Source: Aphrocallistes beatrix (Eukaryota > Porifera > Hexactinellida > Sceptrulophora > Aphrocallistidae). Taken from it: a DNA stretch of 64,000 nucleotides. Below, one piece after another: positions 43,048 to 58,886 of this stretch (positions within the stretch are counted from its first letter, which is position 1; each line of letters begins with the position of its first letter). Location: positions 3,968,001 through 4,032,000 of the forward strand of contig OY725490.1 of assembly GCA_963281255.1 (NCBI GenBank), given 5' to 3'. The notes under the pieces are model-generated. The model was given only the letters and a program-made list of their open reading frames with translations, did not search any database and was not told the origin of the DNA. A program made the position numbers and the translations under genes.

Positions 43048-44938
43048 GCTTACAGCATATATCAAGAATATAGATATATAAGATGTTAAGCGTGGGCAGG
43101 TAGTGCAATTAAAAAATATTGAGACATGCCAAACAGTTTTTGGTTCGCATTTCTAGTTTTTGAGTTACAGCGTCTCAAAGTCGGTTTTTTCCGTTTTTCC
43201 CTAGCACATCTTAATGGTAAGCCCTCCTCCACTCTGTGATTTTTTTGAAACACATGTTTGGATCAAATGCTTCGAAAATTTATTCATATATAGTCTATAA
43301 AATTTGCAATCGCATAGAACCAAAAGAAAGTTAAAATAACCAAAATTGTTAATTTTATAGGGCTTTGAAAAAAAATTGCCAAAAAACGGCGAAAAAAGAA
43401 ATTTTCTTTGGAAATCAGCAATAAAATCACAAATTTATAAGATATCTAAAATCGAGTGGTCCTACGCTCATCGCCTAATGATATGGAACAACTCCTGAAA
43501 TTTTCAAACCTCTATCTTAAAGCAATTTTGAGTTAAAATTTTTGAAAGACGGTCAATTTTGGAATTTTAAAGTCCCGAGATATAGGGATTTGAAGTTTTG
43601 ATGTTAAGAACGATGTAAAATGAGCTATTAACGATAAATAAAAGCATCCATGGGCATTTAATCGCATGTATACTAATGAATTAAATGTATTCCAACAGAT
43701 TTTGGTGAAAATAGCAAAATTATATTGAAAATTCATAAATTACCTTGATGCCTCTAACCCTGAATATTTTGAACCAATTAGGGAATATAATTCATATTCC
43801 TAGCACTACAAAGTATAATTCATCGGCTTAGAATGAATAAAGAGCTTCTAAAAAGTATATTAGGAAGTTAGAGCGAGAGTCTACGACTTTTAGTTTGAGT
43901 CTACGACTTTAAGTAGGATTTTCGAAAAATGCTACGTCATCACGTGATAAAAATTTAAAACTTTGCATTCCATTCCATGTAGTACACTTATTATTTAAGA
44001 ATCAGATATATACCGTCTTGAAAAGTATATTAGGAATTGAGAGCTAAGAATTTGGGTGTATATTTCCCGAGATATGGAGGAATCTGTTTTTGGACCATAA
44101 ATGGAGGGCTTTGACCGAGTTTTGGAGATAAATGCTTTGAACTTCCAAAATAATCATATTGAGTGCTTCAAAATTTCTGTATACATTGTTAGTGACTATT
44201 GCATTGTTTTTTGAGTATAATAGCTACTTTGGGAACTTATTTTATGACAAGATTCGCCATTTTCTAATATATTCAAAGTTCTCCATAGAATTTGTATTAC
44301 AATATAATCGATGATAACTCAAGAAATATTTACTTTTTGACAAAGATGTTTGAGGAACCTATATATTATCATATATATCCTTTCATTTAAGATTCCAATA
44401 GATTATATATCTTCAATACTTTTTAAGCATTGACATCGAGCACTTTCGGAGCCATAGAGAGGTTTGATGTCCGAACTTTACCTACAATATACTATAACTT
44501 ACGAACTAATGGTCGGATCTGAACAAATTTTTTTTTTAACTGTTCAGAATTCTTTTCTATACACAATAGCTAATATCACAACGGCCATTTCCCGAGCATT
44601 TTAGAAATGAAGTCCCTCNNNNNNNNNNNNNNNNNNNNNNNNNNNNNNNNNNNNNNNNNNNNNNNNNNNNNNNNNNNNNNNNNNNNNNNNNNNNNNNNNN
44701 NNNNNNNNNNNNNNNNNNNNNNNNNNNNNNNNNNNNNNNNNNNNNNNNNNNNNNNNNNNNNNNNNNNNNNNNNNNNNNNNNNNNNNNNNNNNNNNNNNNN
44801 NNNNNNNNNNNNNNNNNNTCAGAAATAAAATTCTGATCGTTTCAAAAAAAATTTTGTTCGGATCCGACCATTTGTTCGTGATATATCGCTTACTATAGGT
44901 AAAGTTCGGGCATAATATCTCCCTTTGCCATAGAGCAC
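43048..44938. repeat. GTTAAGCGTGGGC palindromic repeat, left part
   Basis: From GGCTTACAGCATATATC and GATGTTAAGCGTGGGCAGG it runs to the Ginger insertion site. The segment 43081-43985 is complementary to 50780-51620 across the transposon. An assembly gap lies inside. There is no coding capacity. Confidence 0.65.
44619..44818. other. Assembly gap (200 N)
   Basis: A run of exactly 200 N. The flanks (GAATTCTTTTCTATACACAA and TCAGAAATAAAATTCTGATC) have inverted similarity, so the gap lies at or near a palindrome centre. Open frames reported across it are meaningless. Confidence 0.99.
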
Positions 44939-45240
44939 TGTTGCATGAGATATTGACCCCCCCTCTAATAATGACCCCCCTCTTTAAGGAACCATGGATA
45001 CTCAGGGGGGTCATTATCTCATGGGGGTCATTATCCTACACGACCTGCGTGAGATAATGACCCCCCCTTATTTAGTATTATAAAATTAGTTTGTAACTGT
45101 AATGCAGTGAGCTCTTACCTCATTGATGCGACTTGATTGTTGTCATCATTGCATGACAGTTACAAACTAATTTATAATACTACACTTATTAAACCACAGG
45201 AAGCACTAAATGTTCTGGTATCTATTACGTTATTATTCTA
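44939..45240 (+). repeat. Ginger1 left terminal inverted repeat
   Basis: About 300 bp. The outer part has four or more copies of a GGGGGGTCATTATCTCA-type motif in both orientations, plausible transposase binding sites. The inner part has inverted TTAGTTTGTAACTGT motifs that form their own hairpin. Confidence 0.85.
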
Positions 45241-45350
45241 ATGAGTTGACAACGCACTAATAACACTATATAATATTGTTTGCAATGCATGGATATAAAA
45301 CATTGTGTATAATTTATCTTTGTTTATTGATTCAATTTGGAAATCTCAAA

Positions 45351-48300
45351 ATGGATTCAACTGAATATGATGAATTGTGTAATTATTTATTGCGCCAAAA
45401 GTACCCAGAACATTTGGGGAATTGTAAAAATTTGAAGAGGAACTTTCGACGAAAGGCATTAAAATTTCGTGTAGATGAAAAGAATGTACTTTACCAAGTA
45501 AGTTTTAACAATTTTCAATATAAACAAATAATTCAAATTCAAAATACAATCATTTTATAATTTATATTTTATTAGAAAGTCCAGTTACCAAATGGAACTG
45601 AAGTGTTTTTACGATATCCTCTAAAGTCAGAAGTGCCAGATATCTTGAAGTTATACCATGACGAACACCATCCTGGGATGAACGCAACTCTAACCAATAT
45701 CCGCAGGGAATACTACTGGATTGGGATGTGCGACGAAGTTAAACTCTACGTAAGTATAGTTATTCGTAACTAATTAATGATTCCTTTTGAGTTCCATTAG
45801 TTTTATCGGCCGTCGATAATACTTATCTTATTGAGTAATGTTAGATGATTTTATAGCCGATAGAAATCAATTCTGACCGATAATGCAAATTCAAGGCGTT
45901 TTAAAATCTCGCCATCTATAAGTAGTCCCTAAATTAAAATGTAAAATCTCTCAACTAAAGTCTGATCTTGTGTAATAAGTGTAAACATTTCATGTAGATC
46001 AGTGGTTCTCAAACTTTTTACAGCGCGTACCACTTCAAAAAATATTAGGGTCCCCGCTTACCACCATAATGATCGATATTTAAATTCACCCCCGAAAAAT
46101 AAACCATATGAAAAACACTCGTGAGATGGACAAAATTACAATAAATAGAATATGATTGACAAAAGTACAAATCATAATTTTAATAATATTCAAATTTTGA
46201 TATATTTTTAACGTAAAATGAGATACCTCCGCCTACTACTAGAAGGAGCTCGCGTACCACAGTTTGAGAATCACTGATGTAGATATTCAAGTGGTTCATA
46301 GACTCATGCCCCATACCAATTTTCAGGTTTCTATTATTTAACATTCCTCAATCAATTCGAATAGAATTTACAATATTTGAATTTTAATGTGGTATCGGAT
46401 AAAAATAGAGTCACATCCTGTATGCCAATGAGGTTTTCTTCTTTTAGACAAAAAGTTGCGATGATTGCCAGAAGCTAGCAGCTGTGAATACAAACCAAAA
46501 TCGTTTACTCCAGCCCATACCACCCCCCGAAAGGCCATGGCAGCATATCGGTGTTGATTTAGTATGCGACTTGCCAATTAGTAAAGATGGTTATTTACAT
46601 CTCTTAGTTGCGGTATGCTATTTGTCAAAGTATGTAGTTGCAAGGCCACTCAAGTCTAAGCGTTCCAGTGAAGTGATAAATCGACTACGCAACATTTACT
46701 TAACACTAGGTACCCCCCAAATAATACAACACGACCAGGGTCCTGAGTTCAGGAGTAAGGTTAGTAATTAGCTTTAAAAAATTGAATTATCATGATACAT
46801 ATTATTATTTATGCCTTTTTACTATCGTAGGAGTGCCAACAGTTCCATAAAGAATTAAAAGTAGACAATAGGTCAACAGCGGCTTACCATCCTCAAAGCA
46901 ATGGCCTCGTGGAATCTCATAACAAGATATTGAAAAAGTACGTCGTGATTGTATAGTTAGTTGGGGTATCCCCCTTTCTTGTATCAGGTCTTGAATGAAG
47001 TTATTTAATTATCTAGCAAGCTTGAGAAATTTCGATCCAACATGAATGTTGAATGGCCAGATCGGATATATGAGGCATGCTTAGCTGCGAATACGCACCT
47101 CAAAAAGGCTACTAAGACTACGCCATTCCGACTAATGTTTGGTAGAGATTTTAATCCTGCGTACCTGTTTCGAGCAAGCAACATAGAAGTTGAGGAATGT
47201 TCAAGCTCTGAAGATGAAGCTATACTTGAGTCTGAAACATACGAGAGCATTTATGATCCACCTATTAATGCGAACGATTGGATGGAAGATATGGATTCAT
47301 GCCGGAATTCCGAATGTGAAGTTTCCCAGAAAAATATTATCCAAGATCAAGCTCGTCAAAAGCGAATCTTTGATGCAAAGGTCCAACGAAATAGGTATTA
47401 ATTTTAAATAAACAGGTTCATAGCTCATCAGCATTACTACATGTAACTTAATAACTACTAGTATAAAGTGTATACAATTAAAATGAGTGTTTATGTGGCT
47501 GACTTTGTAAGTATCTGACTTGATATCATATTCACAACACCGCATGCAAAATTAATATTTGATATTCCGCATAGGTCAAACATCGAGGAGTCGGACAACG
47601 TACTCATTCGGAATGTAAAGAAGGACAAAAAACTTCCTGGAACGAAAACACAACCAAAATATCTTGGTCCATATGAAGTGCACAAAGTCACTAAAGGGCA
47701 TGTAATCGTTACAGATAAAATGAAGTCCAAAAAGGTCCCATTCCACCTTACTAAAAAATATTTGCAGCGCAATACACAGGTACTATATTTATTCAAAAAA
47801 TCAAGACTAAATTTGTATGTATCTGTTAGTTACTATTTCAAACTTGTATCATAGAAGAGTGATAAAACTCCAGCAGAAATGTCCATCCGGGTATCAAGGA
47901 AACGCAAATCATCAATGCCAAAACAACTCTTTCGTAAGGTAATTATCAGATGGAGATTTTATGTAATTTTGATTTTAATGATGGATTACCATTCTCTATA
48001 ATTTAGTCAAAAACTTCCCGTTCAACTCCACAAATTTCCAACGCGAGTGAAGAGCATTTGCATTCGACTAGCTACCAATACACCAGTGATCAATGTAAGT
48101 ATGTGTTCAAATTGTATTTATAACAATATATAGACTTTTAAATTAACAAGCACGATTCGCAGGCTTATTTTAGTACTCGATTGCTCCCAGCTACCTTGTT
48201 GATTGCCCCTTTGGTTTTTGACAAAGTATATTGATTTTACGTAAACCAACTATCCATTTTAAAACTCAAGTTGATTTTACAATTTATTTAATTCTTTATT

Positions 48301-50328
48301 GGAAAATTATGCACATTTAGAAAGTTGATTGGAAAGCTAGGCGAGGATGAAACCAAAGAAATATCGCCTAGATTCTATACTTAAAATATAATAAATTTTT
48401 ATTACGTTCTTGAATTACGTATTTTCACCCGATTAGGCAATAGGCAAGTACGTAATTGTGTGGTTGGAAATCTTAGAAAGCTGTCTGATTACACCAGTCA
48501 ACTAGTAATGAAATTACGATATTTTGTTCTAATTTCTAACAACTACATTTGCTTTAACAACAGACACAATTTTCAAGAAAAAAAGTTCACATTTGTAGAA
48601 CGATTAAATGTAACAGTTTGTAAAATAATTTTTAGCTTACTACTACGATGTATGGTATTTTTTAATTGATTAAAAAGCACACAAGTATACATAGATTTCT
48701 TATGAGTTCTGGCTCTTTGCGATAACCTCCCTCATGGTTAACTTCACTATATCTGAATACCCTAGTAACGATCAAAACGACGTTTTTGGGAATATGGATT
48801 CAGAAATTTGTTTAGCTTTTACTTGTAATGAAAAACATGGGTTTATCCAGTATCACATACCCGTTATATTATTTAGTAGTTGTGGTCAAATGATATTTAT
48901 GAACCTGTTGAGATTGGTATACTAAAATATAGTGATAATACTGCCAGACAACCAGACAGTAGATGCTCGATATACGAATAAGCTTTTGCAAAATTCCAAA
49001 TTTTATTGATTTTAAAAAATTTAGGTGGAGACGGTAATATTGGTGCAATGGCTGAAATTTTCGAATCTCCTGCAAAGCCACCTCACCTTTCAGAAGAACA
49101 ACAGCTCGAAATTATTAATGAGATCAAGCCTAAACTTCTGACCGCTTTAAATGAGGAATCATTTTTGTCTGATCTCCACAAACAGCTCGATGAAAAATCA
49201 AAGTACATGCGTTTTAATGACCTCATAGCATACCATCCCACAACTCCATTTGATTATAATTTCAAAGAAAAATTTGCTTGTTTAGCTTCCCAGTGGTATG
49301 ACGAATATCTTGTTTGCAGACAGATAGACATTAGTGATGCCCAGAAACGAGACTATCCTCTAACTGTTCTCCTACCAGTTATTCTTGAATATATCGCGAA
49401 TTCTCAGGTTATCTACGTCGAATCGGATATTGAAGATAGAGAACTCGGTATGGACGTCATATCAACCTCTGTTGACCTAGAATACAATTCGTACTCGCCC
49501 AGTTCTATGTTTGAAAACTTATGCCCAGTTTGGCAGGGACAATTTAATGACATCTCTCACCTCAATACATGCTCGATTGATAATCTAATTTCGTTAATCA
49601 GTCTCTCTCAAAGCAAAATAGAAGAAGCTCTCGATTTCGCAGAAATTTCACAAAACCCAGATGTAAAACATTTTTTTGAACTCATACATGCCCTAAAATT
49701 TGATGAACTCCGAGACTATATTGCAAGATTAATTAATATTAAAGTAACGTACGATGTTATAGTCAAACAGTATGATTTTTATGGCTCTGAATCTTCTTTC
49801 ATCAAAATACTAAGAAAATTTGGCATTTCCAATGACGTTTATTCATCCACTTTACAATGCTACAGTTGCTGTGATCAATTTACCATAACACCTCAACTGG
49901 GAAGCTTAAGTAATGTCACGTCTACCCTACAAACCAGCATTGATAAGAGGATTTTACCCCTAAAATGTAAGAAATGTCAATCGAATGACTGTAGTCTTGA
50001 GCAACTCTCTGGATATTTCCTTGCAATTCCTTCAATATTCATTATTGAGCTTGGTCATCTTCCTAATATTCCCTGCACCCCTCAAGATATTGATGAGATC
50101 ATCTACATCACTGATACGCGTAAAGCTCAAAATTGCCTCTGCTATAAACTAGCCGGATTTACAGTATCGATGGGTAACCATTTCTACTTAATAATACGTC
50201 TCAATGATGTATGGTACAAGTATAACGATATGCTATCACCTAAGCTAACAGAATGGCAGAAAGGTACTTCTCTAGGAAAAGTTAATACGGTTTTTTATAT
50301 TCTACATCCGGATTTGTATATTCATTAG
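45351..50328 (+). CDS. Ginger1 transposase: integrase fused to a USP-like protease
   Basis: Nine exons, all GT-AG and phase-consistent: 45351-45497, 45576-45749, 46448-46759, 46831-46937, 47017-47394, 47575-47779, 47855-47938, 48007-48094 and 49025-50328. They total 2,799 nt (932 codons plus stop). The start MDSTEYDEL has a good context (AAAATGG); an upstream in-frame ATG at 45285 is possible. Domains in order: an H2C2 zinc finger (YHDEHHPGMN in exon 2, CDDC in exon 3); a DDE integrase (IGVDLVCDL, IQHDQGPEF, HPQSNGLVESHNK); a GPY-type module (YLGPYEV); a basic linker (SRKRKSS); and a C-terminal cysteine-protease-like domain. No internal stop was found. Integrase would catalyse strand transfer; the protease role is unknown. 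Confidence 0.82.
46000..46276. mobile_element. hAT-like MITE in a Ginger1 intron
   Basis: The ends CAGTGGTTCTCAAACTTTTT and CAGTTTGAGAATCACTG are flanked by ATGTAGAT on both sides, an exact 8-bp target duplication. It is 277 bp and lies in intron 2 of the transposase gene, so it need not disrupt the protein. Confidence 0.9.
49025..50328 (+). CDS. Ginger1 last exon: USP/USPL1-like protease domain
   Basis: The exon begins after TTTTAAAAAATTTAG and completes a Cys codon split from exon 8. The catalytic Cys candidate is in HLNTCSIDNLISLI near 49570. A zinc ribbon follows (CYSCC near 49860 and LKCKKCQ near 49970). The His box is SMGNHFYLIIRLNDVWYKYND near 50170-50230, with the likely third residue in YND. 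This order (Cys box, CxxC pair, CxxC, His box with a W-Y-x-x-x-D) is the plan of ubiquitin-specific proteases and of the related SUMO protease USPL1. Whether the substrate would be ubiquitin, SUMO or neither cannot be read from sequence. All catalytic positions appear intact. Confidence 0.7.
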
Positions 50329-50455
50329 TTGTTAATTCATTTCTGTCTCCTCTCTTGATATATTCCTAAATTTTGCTGTTCCCAAAAGTAATTTAATCCA
50401 ATCAATTGGTATTACTTGTCTTTCATTACTAATCTAGAATTATTGCGTAGTAAGC

Positions 50456-50775
50456 TAGAATAATAACGTAATAGATACCAGAACATTTAGTGCTTCCTGT
50501 GGTTTAATAAGTGTAGTATTATAAATTAGTTTGTAACTGTCATGCAATGATGACAACAATCAAGTCGCATCAATGAGGTAAGAGCTCACTGATGTTGCAG
50601 AATTCAGCATAATTATTATTGAACATGATGAAGCTTAATTAATAAGGGGGGGTCATTATCTCACGCAACTCGTGTAGGATAATGACCCCCATGAGATAAT
50701 GACCCCCCTGAGTATCCATGGTTCCTTTAAGAGGGGGGGTCATTATTAGAGGGGGGGTCAATATCTCATGCAACA
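50456..50775 (-). repeat. Ginger1 right terminal inverted repeat
   Basis: Inverse of 44939-45240, with a small extra segment near 50594-50640. High identity between the two ends suggests recent insertion. Confidence 0.85.
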
Positions 50776-51690
50776 GCACTACATCCTATGGAATGTAAGT
50801 TTCTGAATTTTGTCATATGATGACGTAGCATTTTTCGAAAATCCTAACTTGGAAACTAAAAGTCGTAGACTTTCGCTCTAACTTCCTAATATACTTTTTG
50901 GAAGCTCTTTATTCATTCTAAACTGATAGATTATACTTCATAGTGCAAGGAATATGAATTAGTATTCACAATTATCTCAAAATATTCGGGGTTAGGGGCC
51001 TCAAGGAAATTTGCGGATTTTCAGGTTACTCTTTCTATTTTATGTAAATATTTGGTTCGAATATACCTACATAAATCAGCAGTATAAATGCGAATAAATG
51101 TCTGTGAATGCTTTTGTTCATTTTAATTTTAATAATCTCTATATCTCGGGACTTTAAAATTTCAAAATTGACCGTCTTTCAGAATTTTAAGTCAAAATTG
51201 GTTTGATATAGAGGTTTGAAAATTTCAAGAGTTGTTCCATATCATTAGGCGATGAACGTAGGACCACTTTATTTTCGATATCTTATAACTTGGTGATTTT
51301 ATTCCTGATTTCCCAAAAAGAACAGGCATTTTCGCCCTTTTTTGGCCCTTTTTTTTCGGACACCGATAAAATTTACAATTTTTGTCATTTTAACTTTCGT
51401 TTGGTCCTATGAAGTGGCAAATATGATAGACTATCTATGATCCGATTTTGGAAGCGTTTGTTTCCTTGGTATGTTCTAATTTCTATCATTAAGATGTGCT
51501 AGCGATAAACGAAAATGACTTTGAGAAACTGTATCTCAAAAACTAGAAATGAGAATCAAAAACTGTTTGGAATGTGCAAGTATTTCTTGACGGAGAGCTT
51601 AACATCTCTTATAGCTCTACTTTCATCGTATGCTGTAAGCCAAATCATATGATTTTTCGAGGGCGGTATCCTTAATTCACTAATTAACTC
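50776..51690. repeat. GTTAAGCGTGGGC palindromic repeat, right part
   Basis: It continues the sequence broken by Ginger1 (GCAC, then TACATCCTATGGAATGTAAG). It ends with GAGCTTAACATC and TTTTTCGAGGGCGGTATCCT, the family terminus. Confidence 0.65.
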
Positions 51691-53188: not shown

Positions 53189-53851
53189 CTAGGAGAATGT
53201 TGGAGTGAGACTGTTTATCATTGTAGTGACAGGTTCGTAGTGTTCGTAATAATTTGCGATGTATATGGCACTGTTTTCATCATTGCTGTTTGAAGAACTT
53301 ATCCGTGACCAGCGTACTTTTGGGATAATACTGTCCTCAGTTCTATATATTCTGTTGGCAACATATATATCCGTCTTAAGAAGTGAGGAGGCGGTCATCA
53401 GTTCAACGTCACTTCCACAAAAACCTTCGTTACACATGCATTTATTTCCAAGATATTCAGCAGGAGTAGTTGCCAGAACCTGTTCAAAGTACCAACTTAT
53501 ATCATCTTTCCCATCACTCAGCATGTAGCGGCATATCTCCCCTCGGAGTTTGGTGTGGTATTCTTCAGTCCCTGAGATAATTTTAGACAGACATCTGAAC
53601 ATGCAGTTGCCATCACCCGTAATAGTGTCGAACTTCCACGGCTCAAATAAACGCAACTTGTGCCTCTCAATCCTGGAATGTTGATCAGTTCGCTGTCGGA
53701 ATTTGATGTCTAACAGATTGCACTTATCTTTTTGCCACTCAATAGTGATGGGAGTTATTATAGGGTCGTCGGACCTTAGGTGGTGGAAATCGAGACGTGG
53801 AAATCCATCTGGCCTCAGAGTGAATAATTTATTTTCAATGAATTCCAATGC
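53189..53851 (-). CDS. OTU-type cysteine protease exon of Ginger element 2
   Basis: The frame runs from the acceptor CAATTTAG at 53852 to a stop at 53189 (about 220 residues) and is uninterrupted. ITGDGNCMFRCLSKIISG near 53590-53640 holds the D-G-N-C catalytic signature of ovarian-tumour (OTU) deubiquitinases. DVELMTASSLLKTDIYV near 53370 and IYIANYYEHYEPV near 53240 supply the conserved middle block and the catalytic His. It sits at the 3' end of the transposase gene, the position taken by a USP-like domain in the element at 44939. An OTU domain is known in some Ginger1 elements. Although the rest of the element is decayed, this exon has kept its frame. Confidence 0.85.
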   Translation of the reverse strand, partial: ALEFIENKLFTLRPDGFPRLDFHHLRSDDPIITPITIEWQKDKCNLLDIKFRQRTDQHSRIERHKLRLFEPWKFDTITGDGNCMFRCLSKIISGTEEYHTKLRGEICRYMLSDGKDDISWYFEQVLATTPAEYLGNKCMCNEGFCGSDVELMTASSLLKTDIYVANRIYRTEDSIIPKVRWSRISSSNSNDENSAIYIANYYEHYEPVTTMINSLTPTFS

Positions 53852-53960
53852 CTAAATTGAATGAAAATATAAGGATCTAATATCACTAGTATAATAGGTG
53901 ATTTCTATCATTAGATGTAATTCGTAGAATCAAATTATTACTTACCACTCCATATAGTAC

Positions 53961-54473
53961 TGTTGCATGAAAGAATGCCCCCCCGTGAAAAAATGCCCCC
54001 ACCATGGATATTCATGTATTATGGGGGGGGGCAAAATTTCATGGAGTTAGCGTGAAAAAATGCCCCCCCGTGAAAAAATGCCCCCACCATGGATATTCAT
54101 GTATTATGGGGGGGGGGGCAAAATTTCATGGAGTTAGCGTGAAAAAATGCCCCCCCGTGAAAAAATGCCCCCCACCATGGATATTCTAAAGTATGCCAAT
54201 GCTTATACAAAACATTTTGAATGCTATTTGGCTTCTATTCGTTTACTAAAGCATTGCAAATCAACAAACTAGTCGTGTGAAGTAATAACAATGACTTTCA
54301 TAAATGTATGGAATATAAATAGTATCAGCAATATTTAGTGCTAAACTCAAGAATATCCATGGTGAGGGCATTTTTTCACGGGGGGGGGGGGCGATTTTTC
54401 ACGCTAACTCCATGAAATTTTGCCCCCCCATATTTACATGAATATCCATGTGGGGGCATTTTTTCATGCAACA
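53961..54473. mobile_element. Ginger-type MITE
   Basis: It begins TGTTGCATGAAAGAATGCCC and ends with the inverse (TTTTTTCATGCAACA), flanked by GTAC on both sides (4-bp duplication). The left side has a direct duplication of about 80 bp with GTGAAAAAATGCCCCC and ATGGAGTTAGCGTG. The G-runs and ACCATGGATA motif parallel the ends of the element at 44939. It is noncoding and lies between the OTU exon and the next exon of element 2. Confidence 0.85.
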
Positions 54474-54724
54474 GTACTTTGTCGACGTAGTCGCAGGTTT
54501 TCGAGGTTATATACCATACGTTATATACCTTTAGGTTATATACTTTTATATATACTTTTAGCGAACTCCAATAGATTGTAATTGATCTCTCTCCTCTATA
54601 AAGATGACCAGTATGTATACGATTGAAAATTGCAACATTTGATTTCAGATCCAGCAAGATTGTCAAAGGATAATATTCAATGTAAACTTATGTTCATAAA
54701 TTCCTCTTTAAATATCATACTCAC

Positions 54725-54868
54725 CACTGTTTCGGGACATGAATCTTTCAAAACTTGATAAATGATTACATTGGGGACATAGAACCCTTTTACATTAAGT
54801 GCCTTATTCAATTCTTCGTGAAGTATGGAGAGGTATGCTCCAGGGGTTAAGTGATCTTTAAACACCAA
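54725..54868 (-). CDS. Ginger element 2, short internal exon
   Basis: Acceptor CTTTTAG and donor AGTG|GTGAGT bound 48 codons (HLTPGAYLSILHEELNKAL, then YVPNVIIYQVLKDS). No known domain. A likely neighbouring exon near 54927-55040 reads PRNSIPHELAIRHFEGSVLK. Confidence 0.6.
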
Positions 54869-55112
54869 CTAAAAGAAAAGTTATAACTTATATGTTAATC
54901 CTGATAAAGTACTAATATGTTGAAATTTACAACTAAATAAATATTAGATGCATTTCTGAACTTGAAGTCATCTAATTCTTTGAGGACAGATCCTTCGAAA
55001 TGCCGAATTGCCAATTCGTGTGGGATACTGTTTCTTGGGTACTTTCCTAGATTATAAAATGTTTGGGATCATATTTAGAAAAAAAGTATTGTGAAGATTT
55101 TACTCCTATTAC

Positions 55113-55383
55113 CTTGAATTTCTTGCTTACAACAACTGTTTGGAGATCATCATTGCTTTTATGTTTGGTAATTTTGGACCTCGGAAAATACTGTCTTGAT
55201 ATATGAAGCGGAACCTTCTTATATTGACAATCGCTGCCGTCCTTGAGAACTAAAGCATGGTTATCTGTCACGTCAGCTGCTATCATGGGTCCGATATACT
55301 TATGTTCTGTTTTGGTTCCGGGCATTTTCTTTGCTTTTTGCATATTTCTGTCAATAATATGATCTCCTTTCTTTAGATTCGAC
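55113..55383 (-). CDS. Ginger element 2, GPY-like module exon
   Basis: Frame with KKGDHIIDRN, KKMPGTKTEHKYIGPMIAAD and a following basic segment. It corresponds to the YLGPYEV exon of the element at 44939; the same KLPGTKT/KMPGTKT lead-in is seen. The donor is AAG|GTAATA. Confidence 0.7.
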
Positions 55384-55532
55384 CTGTTTAAGTAGATTGC
55401 ATTAATTTAATATAAATTGACTTGTAAAATAACATAGAAATGAGATTATATAATTAAGTACCTGTTTTTCTTGACTTTGTTATCGAATACATGTTTTTGT
55501 AAAAGTTGCTCTTTGCGAATATTGTCACAAGC

Positions 55533-55893
55533 AAGGCTGGATTCAGTTAACCGGTTAACCCGGTAACCGCCGTCGATCTCGGTTAACGGTTAAGAAAATC
55601 TTGGATCGGCTAGCCGATCTGCTTTATTTTCTAAATATTTACACTAATTTCATTGTTTTTCGACAGAGATTCATGAATATTAGTAAATTAATAATACATT
55701 ATTATTTCTATTTTTAACCATATAGTGTATTTCGAGACAACTGAAAATTATCAAATTAATCACTTGCTGGTTAAATATTAGTCTAAAAATCCATATTTCA
55801 ACCAATTAGTATTGACATCGGTTAACCGGTTAACCGCCCTAGAGGAAACCAAAATAACCGAGCCCTAAAATCGGTTAACCAACCCCAGCCCTG
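55533..55893. mobile_element. hAT-like MITE (GTTAACC-rich)
   Basis: The ends AAGGCTGGATTCAGTTAACC and GGTTAACCAACCCCAGCCCTG (to 55893) are flanked by TCACAAGC on both sides. GGTTAACCGGTTAACC motifs repeat within. The insertion splits a coding exon of Ginger element 2 (KARSRSKLQACD side). Confidence 0.8.
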
Positions 55894-56219
55894 TCACAAG
55901 CTTGTAATTTTGATCTGGACCGAGCTTTCATTAGAGGTTCTATCCATTCTTCAGGATGTCCAAGTTTAGGAGAGAATTCGTCTAGTACTTCATTATCGCT
56001 ACTGTCCACATCACTCAACATCGCCAGGTTTGTATGCTCGAGCAGATGAGCGCAATTGGCTTCTCTCCCATACATTAAATAGAATGGCGAGTAACCTGTT
56101 GCTCTCTTCCAGCAAGTGTTGGCAGCTAGGACAGCAGTTTGTTCTTTACTCGGCCACTCTGCTCCTGTTTCTATCACAATCTTGTGAAGTTTACTAAAGT
56201 GTACAAAGAAATATGACAA
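55875..56219 (-). pseudogene. Ginger element 2, integrase C-terminal part
   Basis: The frame reads ETGAEWPSKEQTAVLAANTC, then YSPFYLMYGREANCAHLL and PEEWIEPLMKARSRSK. It matches TPFRLMFGRDFNPAYLF in the other Ginger gene. A MITE cuts it at 55893. Confidence 0.75.
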
Positions 56220-56474
56220 ATTATCCGCTTACGTTCGAATTAATTGGACCGTATTTAATATGCAGTACTAACGTTTTGATTATTTTATTGTGAGCTTCTA
56301 CAAGGCCATTGCTCTGTGGGTGGTAAGCTGTTGTTTTCGATTATCCACTCCTAATTTGCGATGAAATTCCTGGAACTCCTAAATCCATGACAATAATGCG
56401 TAATTGGTAATTTAGCAAAATACATTGCTATTAAATAGTATACAAGTACGATACTACGTTCCAAGTTTACATAC

Positions 56475-56810
56475 CTTGCTGACGAACTCAGGTCCTTGAT
56501 CGTGCTGTATAATCTGAGGTACTCCGAGAGTCAAGTAAATGCTCTCCAGCTGAGCCAATACCTCGCTACTTCTCTTTGTTTTCAATAGCCGTACTGCGCA
56601 GACTTTGGATAGGTAACAAATTGTTACAATATGTTTGTACCCTTCTGCATTCTCCTGCAAATCACAGACCAAATCAATCCCGATATGTTTCCAGGGCTGA
56701 TCTGGAGGAGGAATTGGTTGCAATTTCTTTTGAGGTTGAGGTGGTAACGCAGCTGCCATTGGAGGTCCAATCATGTCATAATGACAATTATGACATGATT
56801 GGACCTCCAA
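56475..56810 (-). pseudogene. Ginger element 2, integrase core exon
   Basis: PPPDQPWKHIGIDLVCDL near 56690 has the first catalytic Asp and IIQHDQGPEFVSKV near 56490 the second. The partner Glu is in HPQSNGLVEAHNK near 56300. The donor AAG|GTATG closes the exon. At its upstream edge the sequence runs into a perfect hairpin at 56759-56810, and the expected C-x-x-C of the zinc finger is altered there. Confidence 0.8.
56759..56810. repeat. Perfect 24-bp hairpin
   Basis: TTGGAGGTCCAATCATGTCA and the next four bases pair without mismatch with 56787-56810 around a GACA loop. It lies at the boundary between integrase coding sequence and unrelated sequence. Confidence 0.9.
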
Positions 56811-56994
56811 GGGTGAATAAAATAATAAAGTATTCGAATAACAGAATTGTTTACTGTCTTACACATGGATTTGATCAATGCAGTACGTAGTAAGTTCCAA
56901 TACCACATAAGTGATAATATGTAATTTTATTATGACTTGTCTCTGCCAAAATCTTGCGATACCGTATCAAGTAGCTAAATTTTAATTCTGAATA

Positions 56995-57845
56995 ATATTC
57001 AAACCAAATATTTCCAAAGAAGTACGGAATCTTGGAACTTGGCTCGATAATACCCTCTCAATGTCTACTCAGGTCAGCAAAGTTGCCTCCTCCTGCTTCT
57101 ACTACATCTATAACATCCGGCGTATTAGAAAGTATCTCTCTTAATTCTCTTATCACATCTCGTCTTGATTATTGTAACAGTCTCTTGTATGGTTGCCCCT
57201 CATCCCTCTTAGCTCGACTCCAGCGAGTCCAGAACAGTGCAGCCAGGCTTATCTACAATGTTTCTCATACCTTTTCGTCATCTCCTCTTCTTATTAACCT
57301 CCACTGGCTGCCTGTTAAACATCGTATCCTCTTCAAAATCCTTCTCATAACTTACAAAGCCATCCATTCTCTTGCTTCGGACTATATCATCCAGCTCATA
57401 CAGGTTAAGTCATCCAATCGTACTCTACGATCATCCAACGCCATCCTCCTTGAGCATCCTACTATCAAATCTTCCAAAACTCTGGGTGATCGTGCATTCA
57501 CTTTAGCTGCGCCTGTTGAGTGGAATCTTCTACCTCCGAGCATTCGGAATGCCCCCTCACTTCTTCTCTTCAAAAAACTCTTGAAACCCCATCTTTTCCG
57601 TATCGCGCACGACACATCCACTTAAATTAATTTCAATGCATATAATACCTTACAAGCATACATACACATACATACGCATACATACACATACATACATACA
57701 TACACATACATACATACATACATACATACATACATACATACATGCATAACACACACCTACTTTTATTGAATTGTACAGCGAACTTGAACATATTAATATG
57801 GAATCTGCGCTATATAAATGTATATTATTATTATTATTATAAAGG
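56995..57845 (+). mobile_element. L2/CR1-type LINE, 5'-truncated
   Basis: It encodes the C-terminal end of a reverse transcriptase ORF: VRNLGTWLDNTLSMSTQ, YNIRRIRKYLS, SRLDYCNSLLYG, RLQRVQNSAARLIYN, LHWLPVKHRILFKILL, and GDRAFTLAAPVEWNLLP to about 57625. A small deletion with a frame change lies after KYLS near 57140. The 3' end has CGCTATATAAATGTATATTA and an ATT repeat tail, typical of L2-like LINEs. It lies within Ginger element 2. A short copy is at 10117. Confidence 0.88.
57655..57745. repeat. (ACAT)n microsatellite in the LINE 3' end
   Basis: ACATACAT units with ACATACGC and ACATACAC variants, between the end of the LINE ORF and its ATT tail. Confidence 0.9.
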
Positions 57846-58026
57846 AAGTTGCAAAACACCACCACCATGATTTTCTGTAAAATGTCTAGCAACATGCCTA
57901 GATACGTAAACCTAGGTATGCCAAATACATGAAATATCGTACATATTAAAATAGCAACGCTTCGAATAATCGCCCCTCTGAATGAATGTAAAAATATTGT
58001 ATCTCCCAGGTATAAATGTTCATATA

Positions 58027-58505
58027 CTCTAATCGGACAAAAGTATTTGAAATTCTTACTATTTTCCATCATAATTAGTTATAAAGTGGGTCTATTCATG
58101 AGTGAAATGTAATCAAACTGTTACAGAGATTGTAAATTCGATTTCAAATTCATATTCTACACATTCGAATTACACAGGTTAGATGCCTTCTATTGATGTA
58201 TTCATTTCCAAAGCTAAGATGCATCGAACTGTGCCACTTTGTGCCACTCCTCATCATCATGTCTAATGGTAATGGGAGTGAAAGGTGGCACAAAGTGACA
58301 TAGATTGATAATAATTCAACTTATGAATGAATATTGAAATTAAAGGTTTCAAACCTGAGTAATTCGAATGTGTAAAATATGAATTTGAAATCGAAATTCC
58401 AGTATCTGTCACAGCTTGATTACGCTTCTCTCCATGAATAGACCCACTTTAGACTAATTATGATGGAAAATAGTAAGGATTTCAAATACTTTTGTCCGAT
58501 TAGAG
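58027..58505. mobile_element. TA-target palindromic MITE, type D
   Basis: The ends CTCTAATCGGACAAAAGTAT and ACTTTTGTCCGATTAGAG are flanked by TA. The element is 479 bp. The core has GGTGGCACAAAGTGACATAG. It is inserted in Ginger element 2. Confidence 0.8.
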
Positions 58506-58715
58506 TATATTAATTTCCTCTTTATATGAATATCCTTTTCGAACGATCACATTTCTCGAAAATAATTATAACTTGTTAGATTAAAGGGAGCAAAATTGAA
58601 TAATCACCCGCACATCTGAGATATTATCCTTTATACTGCAACTTGCATAAAACCAGAGAGGTTGTATCATATTAGTTGTATCATATTAAAGATTGAGTAA
58701 ACAATTAAAACTTAC

Positions 58716-58886
58716 ATAATTTCTAACATCTTTGCTTAGTCCTGGCCAAAAATATTTCTCTTTAATTGATCATACTGTTGTGTTAATGCCAGGGTGTGCG
58801 ACACTGTCGTGATACAGCTTGAAAATCTCAGAAACTCGATCTGAGCTAACGACTTCGTGCGTACGTGATGTATTATCACCAGTCAC
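58716..58886 (-). pseudogene. Ginger element 2, H2C2 zinc-finger exon
   Basis: It reads LYHDSVAHPGINTTV, then SIKEKYFWPGLSKDVRNY, with an in-frame TGA between. It matches LYHDEHHPGMN and REYYWIGM in the intact element. The His spacing differs (HDSVAH against HDEHH). Confidence 0.75.

Follow-up and report, generated by a model that had tools for sequence, protein, structure and literature searches.

A Ginger1-like transposon of the sponge Aphrocallistes beatrix with a USPL1-like domain joined to its integrase

The element described here occupies positions 44939-50775 of a 64,000-nucleotide window of DNA from the hexactinellid sponge Aphrocallistes beatrix (contig OY725490.1, positions 3,968,001 to 4,032,000). 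It is a complete, recently mobile Ginger1-like DNA transposon, and its predicted protein carries a C-terminal domain behind the integrase. In the reading that we favour, with a probability of about two in three, it is a cut-and-paste transposon in which a basic linker connects the integrase with a cysteine-protease module that resembles USPL1 and would remove SUMO. A first-pass annotation, made from the letters alone, had proposed a Ginger1 transposon with a transposase fused to a USP/USPL1-like protease domain. The genome searched comprised 100.5 Mb in 28 contigs, and the loci (L) and contigs (C) numbered below belong to it. The coordinates of the features are collected in Table 1.

Boundaries, copies and gene model

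The edges of the element are exact, with TGTTGCATGA at 44939 and TCATGCAACA at 50775. The termini have the form TGT...ACA and are of the TGTNR type (TGTTG), and the proposed GCAC flanks are present on both sides. The inverted ends of about 300 bp were found as well, although they slightly exceed that length: the arms measure about 300-320 bp, with complementarity of 100% over 136 bp, 95% over 103 bp and 94% over 50 bp. The 20-bp terminus has 46 matches in the genome with at most one mismatch, compared with none for the reversed pattern. A run of 200 undetermined bases (N, 44619-44818) is located about 120 bp to the left of the element.

A search for near-identical copies, which the annotation had suggested, found five besides the one in the window, on C19, C2, C7, C14 and C1; that on C1 is only partly covered in the base-by-base comparison. 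The C19 copy, from which 1,021 bp are deleted, differs from the window copy at 7 of 4,816 aligned bases, and this small difference indicates the recent movement that had been supposed. The corresponding divergence is 1.02% for C2, 1.05% for C7 and 0.66% for C14. All five copies with both ends (window, C19, C2, C7 and C14) have a perfect 4-bp duplication. These are GCAC in the window and GCTC, GTAT, GTCC and GGCC in the others, and all fit GNNY. A CCGG or CCGT target sequence occurs in none of the five, and for this reason the element is filed as Ginger1-like. The coding region is intact only in the window copy among these five; in the other four it is broken by stops, frame changes or splice losses.

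The predicted gene consists of nine exons and eight GT-AG introns with agreeing phases, in accordance with the original nine-exon model. Together the exons span 2,799 nt and code for 932 amino acid residues without an internal stop. To judge from its domains, the protein is a Ginger1-type transposase with an H2C2 finger, a DDE core and a GPY module. Besides the two Pfam matches given in Table 1, two further integrase models fall below the cut-off in the same region, and the Pfam scan of the protein found nothing past residue 250. Exon 1 contains YP, which may correspond to the Ginger1 N-terminal motif YPYY. An insert of about 290 bp is nested in intron 2, and we take it to be similar to a hAT miniature inverted-repeat transposable element. 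Stretches related to this insert recur in the genome.

The C-terminal domain compared with USPs and USPL1

Ten stop-free copies of the domain were aligned (alignment A1). The blocks common to them are W-x-G, NTC-x-x-D-N, C-x-x-C, C-K-x-C, GH, G, H-F and Y-[ND]. C182, N186, K315 and C317 are present in at least nine of the ten copies. The Cys of the Cys box is kept in nine rows and the His in all ten, and the four cysteines of the putative zinc ribbon are complete in nine (L027 is without the last).

A profile of ten Ginger sequences was compared by hhalign with a profile of ten host USPs. The score was 42.1, while 200 column-shuffled controls had a mean of 14.0, a standard deviation of 2.6 and a maximum of 24.4, and reversed controls gave 18.6 and 18.4. 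The integrase compared with the USPs scored 16.7. The alignment starts at the first CxxC and extends to the [DN] that follows the His. The C-terminal half alone scored 40.3 against a control maximum of 21.2 (n=150). With the window's own family left out the score was 44.6, a value without a separate control. The profile comparison thus backs the assignment of the domain as USP/USPL1-like.

The domain was also compared with USPL1 (chain from PDB 7P99 and 7ZJU) and with ordinary USPs at the level of individual features. The comparison covers ten Ginger rows, of which L022 and L025 are near-identical, and eight of the ten host USPs (L052 and L054, which were not parsable, were left out). Asp occupies position C+3 in all ten Ginger rows and in USPL1; the host USPs have Asn in seven cases and His in one. 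The residue following the His is Phe in all ten Ginger rows and in USPL1, and Tyr in all eight host USPs. The spacing between the two CxxC pairs is 36-37 in the nine Ginger rows where it can be measured and 36 in USPL1, while the four host USPs with two clean pairs have 49, 50, 58 and 88. The distance from Tyr to His is 12 residues in all ten Ginger rows, 13 in USPL1 and 16-17 in the host USPs, and that from Cys to His is 193-204, 220 and 240-393, respectively. According to PMC8983731, Phe457 of USPL1 replaces after the His the Tyr that is kept in ubiquitin USPs, and USPL1 is without blocking loops; for the Ginger domain the absence of these loops was judged from length alone. The features beyond those of PMC8983731 were picked after the sequences had been seen and are hence weaker. 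By these five features the domain most resembles USPL1, and they push it away from ordinary USPs.

Several results weigh against this assignment. The annotation had called for a profile search of the domain, and although the comparison with host USPs rises above its controls, the libraries gave no credible match. HMMER searches of Pfam, NCBIfam and PADLOC found nothing for the window domain, and its matches in the PDB were at chance level (E 0.5-1.4). PF15499 (Peptidase_C98) is found neither on the protein nor anywhere in the genome. AlphaFold2 models from single sequences reached a predicted local distance difference test (pLDDT) value of 31.4 for the 433 residues of exon 9 and 33.4 for a 275-residue core, too low for a meaningful comparison of folds. 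In the profile comparison, the Cys-box half alone stays within the controls (17.6 with a control maximum of 18.2; 15.8 with a maximum of 19.0), although the Cys box is in register in the alignment. The hhalign probabilities are modest (31.4, 68.9, 52.8 and 83.8%), and with the cysteines masked the value is 4.2%. Single Ginger sequences scored 20.6 (L058), 23.8 (L030), 30.1 (L039) and 31.7 (L032) on the host-USP profile, and some of these are near control level. The real USPL1, as a single sequence, reaches 29.1 on the same profile; the Ginger sequences are comparable and not better. Judged by these scores, the Ginger domain seems to be linked to the USPs about as visibly as USPL1 is, and less so in some families.

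The comparison with USPL1 alone belongs to the same side. The Ginger profile scored 18.9 (shuffles: mean 14.3, maximum 24.4), and single host USPs, with 13.9-25.8, lie on both sides of this value; the C-terminal half scored 19.4, which 3 of 60 shuffles reached. Thus hhalign does not separate USPL1 from the USPs; it is the comparison of features that speaks for USPL1. In addition, the SUMO-contacting Asn398 of USPL1 corresponds by eye to Lys in the domain. A hydrophobic residue may occupy the position of Phe335 (by eye), and Arg324 is not alignable. Since Asn398 is replaced and the hhalign score against USPL1 is not significant, we call the domain USPL1-like and not a member of family C98.

The domain might instead be a relative of the ordinary ubiquitin-directed USPs, which would deubiquitinate the transposase and so keep it from proteasomal degradation, a role suggested for the Helitron VTD. 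We consider this unlikely. The profile similarity to host USPs and the failure of hhalign to favour USPL1 would agree with it, and Helitron-borne deubiquitinases are reported in PMC9741609 to cleave K48 chains among others. However, the Phe in place of Tyr after the His in all ten rows, the Asp at C+3, the short blocking-loop length and the ribbon spacing of 36-37 match USPL1 and not the host USPs; Asn398 of USPL1 is not kept.

It is quite improbable that the domain has lost protease activity, or never had it, and guides the transposase to modified chromatin as a tether that binds SUMO or ubiquitin. The third residue of the putative triad is Asn in the window copy, and the Cys of the Cys box is altered in L059 (Ser), L060 (Trp) and L061 (Phe), in agreement with this reading. 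Nevertheless, the Cys and His are kept in nine and ten of the ten A1 rows, close relatives of the altered copies (L058, L039 and L032) keep the Cys, and Cys-His-Asp/Asn is the triad of USPs as given in PMC8983731.

There is a very small likelihood that the domain is unrelated to USPs and has a zinc-binding fold of its own, perhaps with a DNA-binding role, the resemblance being due to the ribbon and to chance. In favour of this, HMMER names no family for the window domain, a weak zinc-ribbon model (Zn_ribbon_3CxxC, PF13695, best value 0.00033) matches three of the ten A1 members and is read as the ribbon only, and the N-terminal half by itself does not exceed its controls. The similarity to USPs, however, outlives the masking of all cysteines, with a score of 26.3 against a control maximum of 20.6 (n=150), and the alignment passes through the USP 'LPxxL' strand, the Tyr, the His and W..[YF][DN] in order. 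The cysteine-protease module of USPL1 type remains the preferred reading.

Other peptidase classes were tried and rejected. For Ulp1 there is no Pfam match, and three single host Ulp1 domains gave hhalign scores of 15.8-20.9, near control. No OTU match occurs on the domain, and the Asp-x-His motif of VTD (PMC9741609) is absent from its His box by eye. PF00443 has no match on the protein, and its matches in the genome lie, by eye, at other places than those of the domain. More than ten host USP-like matches are clustered on one strand at C17:3630818-3668145. Relatives outside this genome were sought in viral contigs and in prokaryote genomes with one peptide pattern each, and none was found.

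Linkage of the domain to the integrase and to other proteases

The genome search with exon 9 gave at least 100 scored matches, with identities from 100% down to 27%. Integrase-side exons are located upstream of the domain in 26 of the 30 loci L016-L045, the exceptions being L031, L041, L042 and L043. In this count L016 is the window itself, several copies are near-identical, and L042 lies at the same place as L044. The intronless locus L056 contains integrase and domain in one open reading frame of 911 residues, whose alignment with the window protein, at 27% identity, covers residues 1-925 of the latter in one stretch. The fusion that the annotation had read from the exons is for this reason independent of intron prediction. 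In divergent families, several splice boundaries occupy the corresponding position or lie only a few bases away from it. The acceptor of exon 9 is seen in L022, L024 and L013, and none stands out where extrapolation would put it in L026, L027, L032, L034 and L039.

Between the window and L022, exon 9 has a proportion of nonsynonymous differences (pN) of 0.248 against 0.731 for synonymous differences (pS), the latter near saturation. Among near-identical copies the ratios are nearer neutral (0.60, 0.66 and 1.60), with few changes. This pattern indicates that the domain is under amino-acid constraint between families.

For 129 integrase matches, domains downstream were counted up to a distance of 9 kb on the same strand. 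A USPL1-like domain follows in 27 cases, OTU in 49 and neither in 53, while the opposite-strand control gave 3 of 129. The test used 129 of 184 integrase rows, 56 of 100 rows of the USPL1-like domain and 98 of 149 OTU rows; because these domain lists are partial, the class with neither is inflated. In two of the 27 pairings, integrase and domain are separated by 3.2 and 8.8 kb and perhaps do not belong to one element. The idea that the fusion is an artefact of the gene model, with exon 9 a gene of its own or a chance reading frame, can be dismissed: intron 8 is indeed about 930 bp long and the exon-9 acceptor is not evident in several divergent families, but L056 holds both parts in one frame, the order of integrase and domain recurs in 26 of 30 loci, and the domain follows 27 of 129 integrase matches on the same strand but only 1 of 129 on the opposite strand.

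In the exon-3 integrase segment, a second, OTU-bearing element of the window is 68.7% identical (57/83) to the element studied here, while L056 and L058, which carry the USPL1-like domain, share no more than about 35% identity with the latter. Identities to the window integrase overlap between the classes, 33-97% for the USPL1-like class and 52-72% for the OTU class. This suggests that the USPL1-like domain was either gained more than once or exchanged.

The second Ginger1-like element is located at 53189-58835 on the minus strand. Between its OTU reading frame and its integrase exons there is a stretch of 513 bp (53961-54473) that has TGTTGCATGA ends, is flanked by GTAC left and right, and looks like a non-autonomous Ginger-type insertion. 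An open reading frame on the plus strand at 56996-57625 is similar by eye to the C-terminal part of the reverse transcriptase of a non-long-terminal-repeat retrotransposon. Elsewhere in the genome, L058 (C13:2800300-2804000) has the USPL1-like core behind a different integrase in a frame of 813 residues, and L059 (C17:1481800-1484500) has this core without an integrase core in a frame of 566 residues. Both proteins contain PHD-like and Cys-rich, CXC-like segments, named by eye. For OTU, the genome has at least 149 matches. In L078 (C4:961350-964200) and L079 (C8:3397600-3400750) an OTU domain ends a long single open reading frame, which by eye codes for a different, non-integrase transposase-like protein.

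Table 1. Positions of the features in the window
Feature	Positions	Strand	Remarks
Target-site duplication, left	44935..44938		GCAC
Left terminal inverted arm	44939..45240	+	starts TGTTG; subterminal GGGGGTCATTATCTCA-type repeats in both orientations
Exon 1	45351..45497	+	start codon at 45351
Exon 2	45576..45749	+	first part of H2C2 zinc finger; PF17921 2.9e-15, aa 66-116
Nested insert in intron 2	45992..46284		inverted ends CAGTGGTTCTCAAACT; 8-bp ATGTAGAT repeat on both sides
Exon 3	46448..46759	+	both H2C2 Cys; DDE integrase catalytic D144 and D203; PF00665 3e-12, aa 135-232
Exon 4	46831..46937	+	catalytic E239 (D203-x35-E239)
Exon 5	47017..47394	+	remainder of integrase core, acidic linker
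Exon 6	47575..47779	+	GPY module, GPY at aa 404
Exon 7	47855..47938	+	basic linker; KRKSSMPKQLFRKSK, continuing into exon 8, possibly nuclear-signal-like (by eye)
Exon 8	48007..48094	+	linker
Exon 9	49025..50328	+	USPL1-like C-terminal domain (aa 499-932) and stop
Candidate catalytic Cys681	49570..49572	+	in NTCSIDN; Asp at C+3
Candidate zinc ribbon	49858..49977	+	C777xxC780 ... C813xxC816, spacing 36
Candidate catalytic His884	50179..50181	+	followed by Phe
Candidate third catalytic residue Asn899	50224..50226	+	Asp in several families
Right terminal inverted arm	50456..50775	-	finishes CAACA
Target-site duplication, right	50776..50779		GCAC
Second element, OTU open reading frame	53189-53851	-	PF02338 8.2e-9
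Second element, integrase exons	58835-58713, 56810-55917, 55553-55113	-	

Possible function and comparison with known systems

In the proposed mechanism, the N-terminal part of the protein would bind the long inverted ends and cut the element out. The DDE chemistry is presumably that of cut-and-paste transposition, as for Ginger1, by analogy with the families concerned, and the element would be inserted at 4-bp GNNY-like sites. The C-terminal module would be brought to the same place as the transposition complex. There it may remove SUMO, or less probably ubiquitin, from the transposase itself; chromatin or repair proteins at the donor or target could be alternative substrates. The removal of SUMO may help the complex to persist or the break to be repaired. 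The annotation had supposed that the protease may shield the transposase from removal that depends on ubiquitin or SUMO.

Why transposases carry ubiquitin or SUMO proteases has been a question since the description of Ginger1 in 2010. Bao et al. (PMC2836005) suggested that the proteases act on repair factors, and the VTD study (PMC9741609) suggested protection from degradation. The USPL1-like features lead to a sharp prediction, namely that the substrate is SUMO and not ubiquitin. Such a preference would favour the repair-factor role of Bao et al. or desumoylation of the transposase by itself. If the prediction is true, the protein would be a naturally integrase-fused desumoylase.

The presence of a further constrained protease class on distant integrases, with OTU on a close one, suggests that the removal of ubiquitin-like proteins matters and not one particular fold. 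As a tentative generalization, Ginger1-type integrases could be a platform for interchangeable, unrelated ubiquitin and SUMO proteases (OTU, Ulp1 and USPL1-like), recruited or swapped more than once; desumoylation would then be a step of transposition that selection has favoured repeatedly. A bolder version of this idea would give animal USPL1 and the transposon domain a common history in mobile elements.

The OTU and Ulp1 classes are already published, and what appears new here is the USPL1-like class on a Ginger1-type integrase. No description of such a fusion was known to the annotation, and no report of a USP/USPL1-like domain on a Ginger element was found among the papers listed from the open PubMed Central literature; since Repbase and most subscription papers were outside this scope, the absence is unproven.

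Published Ginger1 elements (Bao et al. 2010, PMC2836005) have TGTNR ends, a 4-bp target duplication, H2C2, DDE and GPY/F. The element described here is similar in its ends, in the length of the duplication, in H2C2, DDE and GPY, and in a C-terminal domain of cysteine-protease type. In the same description the target sites are CCGG in 75% and CCGT/ACGG in 24% of cases, the arms are about 40-270 bp long, and Table 1 lists 0-4 introns and C-terminal domains of OTU or Ulp1 type, one with PHD and one family as not applicable. The present element differs in its GCAC, GCTC, GTAT, GTCC and GGCC sites, its arms of about 300-320 bp, its eight introns and its USPL1-like domain.

With USPL1 (family C98) the domain shares the order of Cys box, CxxC/CxxC ribbon and His box, the short loop before the His, the Asp at C+3, the Phe after the His and the ribbon spacing of 36. 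It differs in having no PF15499 match, in a somewhat shorter distance from Cys to His, in the loss of Asn398 and in its fusion to an integrase. With USPs (family C19) it shares the profile similarity from the ribbon to the His box and the [DN]; unlike them it has HF in place of GHY, no blocking-loop length, Asp and not Asn at C+3, and no PF00443 match.

Proteases of ubiquitin or ubiquitin-like proteins also occur on other transposon proteins. Helitron elements carry VTD and OTU ubiquitin proteases (PMC9741609), and PMC2836005 mentions Ulp1 in Mutator and a C19 domain on a Transposase_11 protein of Trichomonas. These cases are similar in carrying such a protease, but they differ in the type of transposase or in the class of protease: the Trichomonas protein combines Transposase_11 with C19, while in the sponge element an integrase is combined with a USPL1-like domain.

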